Source of the DNA: Candidatus Harrisonbacteria bacterium
GTDB lineage: Bacteria; Patescibacteriota; Minisyncoccia; UBA6257; UBA11618
Direction of reading: 5' to 3'
DNA length: 46,694 nucleotides
NCBI GenBank assembly: GCA_023244835.1
Contig: JAHFLN010000004.1
Location: 1-46,694, forward strand
In this document: one piece after another, positions 39,972 to 44,434 of the stretch
Position numbering within the stretch: position 1 is the stretch's first letter
Layout: the number at the start of each line of letters is the position of its first letter
Notes under the pieces: model-generated
What the model was told of the DNA's origin: nothing
The model's input: only the letters and a program-made list of their open reading frames with translations
Databases searched by the model: none
Translations under genes and position numbers: made by a program

Positions 39972-40043
39972 GGCCATGTAGCCAAGTGGTACGGCAAGAG
40001 TCTGCAAAACTCTTATGCATCGGTTCGATTCCGATCATGGCCT
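39972..40043 (+). tRNA. tRNA-Cys(GCA)
   Basis: Acceptor GGCCATG/CATGGCC, anticodon loop CTGCAAA, U73 discriminator. Confidence 0.93.
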
Positions 40044-40078
40044 CATAAAAAAACCGGCTTCGCCTCATGCGTCGCCGG

Positions 40079-41059
40079 TCATCGGGTTTTCTTTTTTATC
40101 CTTCGATTCGCGTTCCTGATACGGTCTTCGCGCCACTTCCACTTCCTATAGAGGTTGAGGAGTTTTTGTTCTCCGCGGGTTGCGAAGACATACCTCCTGC
40201 TCACGAGCCGGATCACGCTCATAAGTCCGTTGATTATGCTCGGCGGGGGATAGACCCCTGCCGTGCGTATCGCGGAACGCAGGGCGTTCCGCACGCGGTG
40301 GAAGAAGTGGCGAGGAACGAAGAGTCTTCCATCCTTGTCCATACCGATGCCGTTTATAACAACCGGCCCGCGCTGGATATCATGCGCGAACGCCTTCTCG
40401 TCATGGATCGCCATGCCGCTCGATTCGATGATGGCGCGTATGCCGTCACGGATCGCGCGGCTCTTCCGCTTCCCATTAACCCGGTGGCCGATAGGCTTCG
40501 GGGAGGAAATCGTGATGTCGTCGAGATAGCGGGTATACGTGAGGCCGTGTTTCGCGCAGTAGGCGCCAAGCGGCACGTCGATCAGTACGCCCGCGTAGAG
40601 GTTGAACCAGTCGGGAGAGGACGGCGCGCCGGTCATAAGCCCGCCTTCCTCGGCCATCACGAAGCGTTTCAGCACTTCTTCGACCTCGTAATACCAGTCT
40701 CCGGTAGAGACTGATCGGGGATCGCATTGCCCGAGGCACCATATAAGCCGTTCGAGGTTCACGCTCGGGTAGGCGCCTCGTATGTCATAAAGGAGAAAGA
40801 AGCGGTTTCCCTTATGGCGTTTCGCGTTCACGAGGGTTGAGCCGCCGCGCACGGACCCGGTCGCATAGGGCGACGGGGGGCAGCGGTCCATGAGATGCAT
40901 ACGGATCCGCTTGTGTACGATGCGCATCGCGACGTTCGGCGCATAGATGATGCGCTGTTTGCGCCGGCGAGAAATGGGATTCCAGTCGTCGAAGACGGAT
41001 CGGTTGAACAGGGGCTCGTGCGCAAGATCGCGCATGAGCATGGAGACAGAGAGATGCAT
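40079..41059 (-). CDS. Retron-type reverse transcriptase
   Basis: RKQRIIYAPN, NAKRHKG (NAxxH), FFLLYDIRGAYPSVN, GLMTGAPSSPDWFNL, GLTYTRYLDDITISS (YxDD), VINGIGMDKDGRLFVPRHF (VTG-like); RBS AAAGGA. Confidence 0.88.
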   Translation of the reverse strand: MHLSVSMLMRDLAHEPLFNRSVFDDWNPISRRRKQRIIYAPNVAMRIVHKRIRMHLMDRCPPSPYATGSVRGGSTLVNAKRHKGNRFFLLYDIRGAYPSVNLERLIWCLGQCDPRSVSTGDWYYEVEEVLKRFVMAEEGGLMTGAPSSPDWFNLYAGVLIDVPLGAYCAKHGLTYTRYLDDITISSPKPIGHRVNGKRKSRAIRDGIRAIIESSGMAIHDEKAFAHDIQRGPVVINGIGMDKDGRLFVPRHFFHRVRNALRSAIRTAGVYPPPSIINGLMSVIRLVSRRYVFATRGEQKLLNLYRKWKWREDRIRNANRRIKKKTR

Positions 41060-41381
41060 GCGCGATTCCTTTCATATGAAGAGGCTGTTTGGAAATGTTC
41101 AAAACGGAACGAGGGGCGGCCCCGGAACGGGATAACACCGAACCGTTGGGTCCGAAGGATTCCGCGACCGCACAGAAGCGGACCGGATTCGGACCGGAAA
41201 CGCATATCGCCCGATAGGCGACAGCACCGAGCCGGCAGAACGCCTGCTCGGGGACACTGTTCCCTAACGGGGGGAACGTTGCCGTTCCGGGTTGCGACAT
41301 CCGCCCCTCGCCCTGAGATTCCCCAGCGCCCGAAGGAGCCGAAGGACTGCTTGGTGTATAGCAGATGAGTATTAAAAAAGC

Positions 41382-41621
41382 GATGCGGGGGCAGGGAATG
41401 CGGCTATCCTTGCGCTTAAAGCATCGCTTTGCGAGTCCGAAGAAACTACGCCGATCATGGACGTGAGAGCGTAGTTCCGATTCGAAAGAATCCGGACTGA
41501 CCATAGGCTTGCATGACGCCCGAGGGGCGTCAGCGCTCGCGCCGCGGAACGCAGCGCGAGAGACACTATGCCTCATCATGAGGTCTTATGAATATGCCGC
41601 AGAGCCTAATGCCCCCGCATC
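41382..41621 (-). ncRNA. Candidate retron msr-msd non-coding RNA
   Basis: Perfect 12-bp a1/a2 inverted repeat GATGCGGGGGCA(41621-41610)/TGCCCCCGCATC(41393-41382); TTAG after a1; hairpins 41571-41583, 41536-41560, 41514-41532; branched element 41434-41498; same strand and upstream of the RT. Confidence 0.7.
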
Positions 41622-41634
41622 AAGAACCGATTGC

Positions 41635-41663
41635 ACTATGCCATGCCCGAAGATTGCGGGCAA
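41635..41663 (-). promoter_or_regulatory. Candidate promoter for the retron ncRNA
   Basis: Minus strand TTGCCC - 17 bp - CATAGT ending ~13 nt before a1 (4/6 match to each hexamer). Confidence 0.4.
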
Positions 41664-41693
41664 GGCTATTTTCCGGCTACTATAGCCAGTGAA

Positions 41694-41774
41694 GCCCGGG
41701 TGGCGAAATGGCATACGCACATCACTTAAGATGATGCGCCGCAAGGCATGTGGGTTCGACCCCCACCCCGGGCA
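41694..41774 (+). tRNA. tRNA-Leu(TAA)
   Basis: Acceptor GCCCGGG/CCCGGGC, anticodon loop CTTAAGA in CATCA/TGATG, T-arm GTGGGTTCGACCCCCAC. Confidence 0.92.
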
Positions 41775-42074
41775 CATAAGGTCGAACCGAAGGCGCCCGT
41801 TTTCAAGGAGGCATGAGCCGACTATGAAAACGGAGCGTCTCGACCGAAGGGAGAGGCGACCCCCACCCCGGGCACATAAGGTCGAACCGAAGGCGCCCGT
41901 TTTCAAGGAGGCATGAGCCGACTATGAAAACGGAGCGTCTCGACCGAAGGGAGAGGCGACCCCCACCCCGGGCACATAAGGTCGAACCGAAGGCGCCCGT
42001 TTTCAAGGAGGCATGAGCCGACTATAAAAACGGAGCGTCTCGACCGAAGGGAGAGGCGACCCCCACCCCGGGCA
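41757..42074 (+). repeat. Three 100-bp tandem repeat units downstream of tRNA-Leu, each ending with a copy of the tRNA 3' end
   Basis: Period exactly 100 bp (GGCACATAAG at 41771, 41871, 41971); each unit ends CGACCCCCACCCCGGGCA; single-base difference (ACTATGAAAA vs ACTATAAAAA) in unit 3. Confidence 0.95.
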
Positions 42075-42274
42075 CGGTAGGGGATTTCATTGACCCTGCC
42101 CCTCGTTCGGTGGTATTATACAATTTCGTTGGTTCTTTGGCAGAGTCCTGCAACACCCCTGCGAAAAGGAAGGGAGGAAGAGCGGGCAGACGATGGTTCG
42201 GAGGGCGCGTCATGCGCTTGAAGATGTTTTCGTTTAACCCATTTCATGATTTCTCGTAGGTTAAGGAACCTAAC

Positions 42275-42688
42275 ATGCAGAGACGTAGTTCGAGGAAAGA
42301 CTACGGAGATTTAGCGATCACCGTTCCGTTGCTCAATGAATGGGCCAGCCAGAATGGCTTGGCGCACATGATGCCGAAAGACTGCGCATTTGAACGGTCT
42401 TTCGTGGGAGGAGCGTCGTTCGATAAGCGGCGGATTATTTTCGCCCGGGTCAATGTTGATCACGCGGGTGATCGCATCGTCGCCTTTTTGGAGGCGCTCG
42501 TGGGCGAGTTTCCGTGCAGTCACGAGCCGATTGCTCCCACCGGAAAGAAAAACGCGGTTGAGTTGATGGTGAGGGCGGTTGAGGATATGCGGGCTTTGCG
42601 TCGCCTCGCGGAAGAGGCTGCGGCGAGTCCGAAGCGGAGAGCGCGGGCGAGGAGAAGGTCTCCGGTTGCCCTCTGTGGCATGGCGTAG
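42275..42688 (+). CDS. Hypothetical protein
   Basis: 137-aa ORF followed by strong terminator; no family recognised. Confidence 0.55.
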   Translation: MQRRSSRKDYGDLAITVPLLNEWASQNGLAHMMPKDCAFERSFVGGASFDKRRIIFARVNVDHAGDRIVAFLEALVGEFPCSHEPIAPTGKKNAVELMVRAVEDMRALRRLAEEAAASPKRRARARRRSPVALCGMA

Positions 42689-42760: not shown

Positions 42761-42868
42761 ATTGACTTATCCACAGCTCTGATGGCATTACGTCATGCGC
42801 GGGCGATATACTCAAAAGGAACGGTGTGTAAAATCGTCAATAGAAATATAAAAAAGGGAAAATATATT

Positions 42869-44434
42869 ATGAATAAGAAATCGATTTCGTGGAGCGCGTC
42901 GCTTGCGGTCATAAGCACGCTTGCGACATTTACGCCTACTGCGATGGTATGGGCGCAGACGGGTGGCGTGAGCATGACGCCTCCGCAGCAAGGCGGTCAG
43001 ATGGGTGGGGGTGTGATGCCGATGGGTGCGCCTATGGCGGGCAGCGGCACGGTTATGGGGGGGCAGAATCCGACAACGGGCGGAAATAATAAGATGGGTA
43101 TGGGCGGCGGCATGGGAATGAGTCAGCAAATGGGAGGCGGGCAGGGGATGATGATGGGCGGTCAACACGAATCGCCACTTCGTCCGTACGTCGAGAAATT
43201 CAATACGTATGTCACGAGGTCTGCGGCATACGCGACTGATATCGGTGCGGTGATCCCGGACTTCGCGGATTCACTTCGGGAGTTTTCTGAAAATCTGACG
43301 GCGGGACAGCCTGATCCGGAAGATGTGGCTGCATTCACGTCCGATACGCAAGACCTAAAGGCGCAGATCGATCAGTGGAATTCTGTCGCGCCGAAAGGCA
43401 AGAAAAAGACGCTCTTGGGACAGATCAGCAATACCTGCAAGAATCTTTTAAGGGACTTGGGAACATTCGGCCAGGTGGCGCAGATAGAGAGCACGACGCG
43501 CGAAGCCATGACGACGATGCAGGTTGATGCGGCAAAGGCGCGGGCCGCGCAGGCGCAAAACAGTATTGCGGAGATGAGGACGCAGATGCAGACCATGGGT
43601 CAGCCGGGAGTGAATGGAACGGGCATGAACGGCATGAACGGCATGAACGGCATGAACGGCATGAACGGCATGAACGGCATGAACGGCATGAACGGCATGA
43701 ACGGCATGAACGGCATGAACGGCATGTCGCAAAATGGCATCAATGGAATGAATGGGATGATGGGTATGCCGAAGACTGCCGATGAAGCGGCAAGAATGTA
43801 CGAGCAGACGAATCCCGGCCAGAGGTATACTCAGGCCATGCGCGACCAGTTCAATACTATGCAGCAGGGCGGCGGCATGGGCATGATGCAGCCTGGTCAA
43901 TCGATGATGAGCGGCGGTCAGCCTGGTTCTCAGCCGACTGGCACGGGGGCGGGAACGCAGGGAAGGGTAGGTCAGTCGGCAGGTACGCCGCAGAACGGCC
44001 AGCCGATGATGGGTGGCATGGGTACGATGGGATCGATGCCGAGAACGGCGGATGAGATGGCAAGGATGTATACGCAACAAACCGGCCAGCCATACACCCA
44101 GGCTATGCGCGACCAGTTCAATGCGATGCCGCAGAATGGGGGTACGGGTATGATGCCGAACGGCCAGCCGATGATGAATGGGCCGATGAGCGGTCAGCAG
44201 CCTCCGCAGGGCCAGTATCAGCCGCAAGGTCAGCCAGGGCAGGGTGGTCAATCTGGGCAGCAATTCGGAGGTCAACCGCAAGGCGGTCAGATGCAAGGTC
44301 AGCCTCCTCCGCAGGGTCAGCCGACGGGTGGTCAGCAGCCCCCTCCGCCCCCGCAAGGAGAGCAGAAGAGTAGCGTGAATGATACGCTTGGCGCAGGATT
44401 CTGGGGAGGATTCTTCCGGTTCCTCGGGTTCTAG
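42869..44434 (+). CDS. Secreted low-complexity Met/Gly/Gln/Asn-rich protein
   Basis: Signal peptide MNKKSISWSASLAVISTLATFTPTAMVWAQ; helical domain ~110 aa; (MNG)n repeats; proline/glutamine/glycine-rich C-terminus. Confidence 0.75.
   Translation: MNKKSISWSASLAVISTLATFTPTAMVWAQTGGVSMTPPQQGGQMGGGVMPMGAPMAGSGTVMGGQNPTTGGNNKMGMGGGMGMSQQMGGGQGMMMGGQHESPLRPYVEKFNTYVTRSAAYATDIGAVIPDFADSLREFSENLTAGQPDPEDVAAFTSDTQDLKAQIDQWNSVAPKGKKKTLLGQISNTCKNLLRDLGTFGQVAQIESTTREAMTTMQVDAAKARAAQAQNSIAEMRTQMQTMGQPGVNGTGMNGMNGMNGMNGMNGMNGMNGMNGMNGMNGMNGMSQNGINGMNGMMGMPKTADEAARMYEQTNPGQRYTQAMRDQFNTMQQGGGMGMMQPGQSMMSGGQPGSQPTGTGAGTQGRVGQSAGTPQNGQPMMGGMGTMGSMPRTADEMARMYTQQTGQPYTQAMRDQFNAMPQNGGTGMMPNGQPMMNGPMSGQQPPQGQYQPQGQPGQGGQSGQQFGGQPQGGQMQGQPPPQGQPTGGQQPPPPPQGEQKSSVNDTLGAGFWGGFFRFLGF
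43622..43720 (+). repeat. 11 perfect copies of the 9-bp unit GGCATGAAC encoding Gly-Met-Asn
   Basis: Read directly; 99 bp uninterrupted. Confidence 0.97.

Follow-up and report, generated by a model that had tools for sequence, protein, structure and literature searches.

Retrons are described as one reverse transcriptase (RT) with one non-coding RNA, usually with an effector, and the locus studied here raises the question of whether one such RT can be paired with two RNAs and no effector. The stretch of DNA analysed, hereafter the window, corresponds to contig 18 (46,694 bp) in G000, a 658-kb genome that is 97% complete and whose placement in the Patescibacteria (CPR) supports the CPR-like origin suspected in an initial annotation. 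That annotation had proposed a complete ncRNA-RT pair. A retron-type RT and an RNA bounded by a1/a2 are indeed present, but together with a second RNA, so that the pair is a trio. Our comparisons suggest an unusual retron, which could yield two DNA products instead of one.

The reverse transcriptase and its insertion site

In G000, the RT and two RNAs, nc1 and nc2, occupy 1,649 nt separating tRNA-Cys from tRNA-Leu(taa).

40045..41693, minus strand: whole cassette, inserted between the tRNA-Cys and tRNA-Leu(taa) genes
40079..41059, minus strand: retron-type RT, 326 aa (NAKRH, YLDD, ING), assigned from motifs, HMM, sequence and fold comparison

Because these tRNA genes lie adjacent, 3-22 nt apart and beside rbfA, in two relatives of the same genus (G384 and G386) and two of the same family (G388 and G299), the cassette, made up of the RT plus two RNAs, is a discrete insertion. 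The tRNA-Cys gene adjoins the RT, as first noted, and lies on the opposite strand. In the congeneric G385, the order tRNA-Leu/nc1/nc2/RT/tRNA-Cys is kept, and the minimal unit is RT, nc1 and nc2. An additional convergent ORF (L001 7057-7671), absent in the window, separates the RT from tRNA-Cys in G385; its hydrophobic start is predicted to be membrane-anchor-like.

Repeats are also found in the neighbouring DNA. Three tandem 100-bp repeats (41757-42075), 99% alike and with a strong hairpin, include a copy of the tRNA-Leu 3' end; they are absent in G385, and partial relatives (79-90% identity) are scattered on other G000 contigs. Further along, a 9-bp repeat present 12 times (43617-43726), with a shorter array in G385, codes for Asn-Gly-Met repeats within a large Gly/Met-rich ORF (42782-44434).

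The RT contains the NAKRHKG, YLDD and VINGIGMD motifs reported for it, the last of which does occupy the VTG position, but reads ING rather than VTG. NAXXH occurs in 59% of retron RTs and its H in all, while VTG occurs in 47%, with I or L at the first position in 26% (PMC4244168), and two validated retrons deviate from VTG (PMC6868368). NAKRH is present in the window and G385; other relatives retain the H alone, several being without the N of NAxxH, and the VTG position reads ITG in G352 and G301.

RVT_1 is the only Pfam domain of the RT, and a group II intron maturase (GIIM) domain is absent from both the RT (Pfam) and genome G000. The 25 PADLOC matches listed are all retron-type RT models, headed by RT_VI (97 bits) and RT_II-A (96 bits), and the best NCBIfam match is the retron St85 RT, at 98 bits far under its cut-off of 235. 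Ec86 (Retron-Eco1) comes first among PDB sequence matches (E 1e-13); matches to Drt2 (E 0.043) and group II RTs (E 0.08-0.17) are weaker. With an AlphaFold model of the RT (pLDDT 82), 17 retron RT chains rank ahead of other RTs, the best fold match being Retron-Eco2 (Ec67). Among plasmid RT matches, those given a specific family name belong to the Ec67 or St85 retrons; the rest are mostly annotated just as reverse transcriptase, polymerase or hypothetical. Sequence, HMM and fold thus rank retron RTs first, and not the non-retron lineages among which the initial annotation had allowed that the protein might fall; by these comparisons, its closest similarity is to retron RTs. In a tree that omits G941 and is unrooted, without a non-retron outgroup, because no GIIM was found in the class sample or in plasmid and phage records, the window RT groups with its CPR relatives in a clade of 11 that excludes the named retron references (97/94). 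A single-protein search returned no viral relatives, and two distant RTs from an alignment-based viral search were set aside, as they fell outside the window clade.

The two RNAs upstream of the reverse transcriptase

An ncRNA had been placed about 320 nt upstream of the RT. The gap itself is the paralogous nc2, and the RNA described is the distal copy, nc1.

41635..41663, minus strand: promoter-like TTGCCC-17-CATAGT immediately ahead of nc1 a1, weak and seen by eye only
41382..41621, minus strand: nc1, RT-distal ncRNA, from a1/a2 pairing, G385 conservation and covariation
41610-41621, minus strand: nc1 a1, GATGCGGGGGCA, 12-bp perfect repeat
41514..41583, minus strand: nc1 shared core, putative msr, with H1 (41571-41583), AGTGTC, H2 (41536-41560) and H3 (41514-41532)
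41434..41498, minus strand: putative msd element of nc1; closing stem AGTCCG/CGGACT, inner stem 41471-41478/41442-41449
41382-41393, minus strand: nc1 a2, TGCCCCCGCATC, 12-bp perfect repeat
41374..41379, minus strand: six-T run directly after nc1, possible transcript end, in G385 too
41110..41310, minus strand: nc2, RT-proximal ncRNA, with its own a1/a2 pair and hairpin order as in nc1
41301-41310, minus strand: nc2 a1, CGAGGGGCGG, from a1/a2 pairing
41206..41277, minus strand: nc2 shared core, putative msr, with H1 (41259-41277), AGTGTC, H2 (41227-41251) and H3 (41206-41222)
41149..41195, minus strand: putative msd hairpin of nc2; closing stem GGTCCGA/TCGGACC
41110-41119, minus strand: nc2 a2, CCGCCCCTCG, from a1/a2 pairing

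All the elements that had been described in nc1 were recovered at the positions given for them: the perfect 12-bp inverted repeat, the hairpins of 11, 8 and 5 bp and the AGTCCG/CGGACT-closed element. By itself, the 12-bp repeat is unremarkable, since shuffles give a mean of 1.18 perfect inverted repeats of at least 12 bp at such spacing in the 46.7-kb window, and we discarded it as stand-alone evidence. The 634 nt upstream of the RT, however, contain three perfect inverted repeats of at least 10 bp versus 0.11 expected, and 0/2000 shuffles reach three. Rfam reported nothing except tRNA, and a consensus promoter scan did not report the TTGCCC-17-CATAGT element. A protein-coding reading of the ncRNA region was rejected, with stops in all three frames in G385.

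nc1 and nc2 can be aligned from H1 through AGTGTC, H2 and H3 to ATGC (local alignment z 7.5 versus shuffles). Over the two copies from each of the two genomes, four sequences in all, 97% of pair cells in this core are standard and 9/25 pairs are doubly changed, and H2 has five consecutive doubly changed pairs. The core covariation score of 0.520, which was reached by 0/500 shuffles and by no slid version, comes from four sequences that also supplied the structure, and is for that reason weighed jointly with the independent test between species. In this test, G000 and G385 differ on both sides of 6/14 pairs of the nc1 msd element, with no pair broken; in the nc2 inner stem, two pairs differ in this way and a third is broken in G385. 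Identity between the two genomes is about 82% for nc2, about 70-72% for nc1 and 38% for the spacer between the RNAs, while the RT genes share 82% DNA identity, with dN 0.092, dS 0.717 and dN/dS 0.13. The initial annotation would have been undermined by a repeat unconserved in homologous loci; instead, conservation and covariation in this second genome show that the structures of nc1 and nc2 are real. Judged by these substitution patterns, both the RT and the RNA structures are under selection.

A covariance model of the core (R1) has exactly two matches per whole genome in G000 and G385; its weak matches in G384 and G386 (E 0.02-0.06) we attributed to chance. From their sequences, nc1 and nc2 are paralogues, structured RNAs that are each closed by an a1/a2 duplex of their own, have a three-hairpin core in common and differ in the 3' hairpin region. 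Their duplication is older than the split between G000 and G385, and both copies have been retained.

Related loci in the Patescibacteria

Stand-alone relatives of the RT, at about 30-39% identity, occur in G443, G418, G352 and G301, and others wider in the phylum in G857, G914 and G941. As R1 finds nothing in G443, G418, G352 or other relatives, we identified the RNAs there from a1/a2 pairing, position and within-locus similarity. In G443, two related RNAs with a common GGGAC..CCTGCAG..ATCCC (z 11.8) lie upstream of the RT, the first closed by CAGGGAACTAG/CTAGTTCCCTG and the second by a weaker GGGTGGG/CCCACCC. In G418, paralogous RNAs flank the RT, one on each side, with a 52-nt core that has two differences (z 42); their a1/a2 pairs, of 12 bp and 11 bp, are perfect and fully complementary, yet unlike between copies. 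Unlike but complementary a1/a2 pairs around a common core are what a shared RT combined with a free msd would predict.

The two-copy genomes (G000, G385, G443 and G418) all belong to the window's order. A single RNA lies upstream of the RT in G352, G301, G857 and one G941 locus, and downstream in G914; self-alignment of the available locus DNA found no second ncRNA near the RT in G352, G301, G857, G914, G941 or G759. Paralogues from the window, G443 and G418 do not align between genomes, so the recurrence rests on within-locus similarity, and the copies may stem either from an ancestral duplication with concerted change or from repeated duplication.

Single upstream RNAs with 15-bp a1/a2 precede more distant Patescibacteria retron-type RTs in G759 (L056 3050-3361) and G941 (L078). 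In G843, an RT of the window clade is fused to a YaaA (H2O2_YaaD, PF03883) domain in a 652-aa ORF (L055 6180-8138), making this a candidate retron that carries YaaA as a fused partner. G226, of the window's class, has a 595-aa RT (L027 7126-8913) whose C-terminal part resembles, by eye, a trypsin-like protease, and which looks like the RT-protease (type XI) retrons.

One or two templates, and comparison with known systems

The locus is probably a retron-type cassette in which one RT serves two msr-msd RNAs. The RT would bind the shared core (msr) of both RNAs and start synthesis from the 2'-OH of a guanosine close to where the a1/a2 duplex ends on its inner side; copying of the downstream hairpin (msd) would then give two msDNAs that are alike in their RNA parts and differ in their DNA hairpins. 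The weakest point of this mechanism is the priming context. The priming guanosine mostly lies in TAGC near the inner a1 end, with variants and one validated exception (PMC6868368). The TTAG reported after nc1 a1 is present, as CATTAGG, but the likeness to Ec86 drawn from it holds in part: nc1 of both species has TAGG rather than TAGC, and nc2 has no such motif. Among relatives, TAGC is found in G443 copy A and in G857, and CAGC in G443 copy B.

This asymmetry fits a second reading, in which one RNA is the template and the other, which is not copied, attaches to the RT via the shared core and serves as a scaffold, decoy or regulator. nc1 has TAGG next to a1 where nc2 is without AG, it is followed by the T run and lies farther from the RT, and several relatives have just one RNA. 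We nevertheless regard a single template as unlikely: a1/a2 duplexes and 3' hairpins are kept in both RNAs, and the nc1 msd element stays paired through its six double changes.

Less likely still is an ordinary tripartite retron whose effector is encoded elsewhere in the genome, the second ncRNA being a recent, dispensable duplicate. In characterised defence retrons, an effector is usually present (PMC12548924). The insertion, however, contains the RT and two RNAs only, supporting the earlier observation that no effector is linked, and reading of the neighbouring ORF translations showed no effector candidate beside seven stand-alone relatives (G385, G443, G418, G352, G301, G914 and G857), including relatives at different chromosomal sites; the neighbours appear to be housekeeping or unrelated genes. 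A recent duplicate is also at odds with the age of the duplication and the retention of both copies. That the RT belongs to another class (DRT/UG, DGR or group II-like), and the RNAs to some other function, is very improbable: ING in place of VTG, the loss of the NAxxH N in several relatives and a separate clade in a tree without an outside root would allow it, but retron RTs rank first by every comparison, Drt2 and group II RTs trail, and RVT_1 is the sole Pfam domain.

Returning to one RT with two templates, we tentatively propose a Patescibacteria retron lineage, recurring in three lineages of one order, in which one RT makes two msDNAs from paralogues that share an RT-binding core and have diverged in msd, the RT and its two ncRNAs working as a self-contained unit with no effector protein. 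The least certain step is its biological role, for which characterised retrons serve as the model (PMC12548924): by analogy with them, the unit is probably a defence or sensor element and would work either by means of the RT-msDNA complex alone or with an effector whose gene lies elsewhere. If the proposal is true, a conserved, effector-free two-ncRNA unit shows the natural use of two templates by one retron RT, comparison of nc1 with nc2 reveals which elements the RT recognises (the shared core) and which vary freely (msd), and the unit, bounded by the empty site in sister species, offers a minimal system for the role of msDNA without a linked toxin. In the open-access papers searched, we found no description of a retron with two or several ncRNAs, and Patescibacteria retrons are barely mentioned there.

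Diversity-generating retroelements, which are frequent in CPR (compare PMC8144416), likewise combine an RT with a separate RNA template. Such elements have template and variable repeats plus an accessory gene. The window differs from them in that retron RT models and structures score first for its RT, and the long direct repeats in the segment searched for repeats, 40000-42300, are units of the 100-bp array only; the insertion has no accessory gene. Type VI retrons have a small helix-turn-helix partner gene. The best HMM matches of the window RT are to types VI and II-A (PADLOC RT_VI/RT_II-A) and to St85 (NCBIfam), but the insertion is without a helix-turn-helix or other partner gene. The RT of Retron-Eco2 (Ec67) is fused to a Toprim effector, whereas the window RT is without an extra domain. 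From Retron-Eco1 (Ec86), the window differs in its two diverged RNAs, the lack of a linked effector and its variant priming motif and VTG, while sharing with it an RT and an upstream RNA closed by a1/a2, in which short msr hairpins are followed by an msd hairpin.
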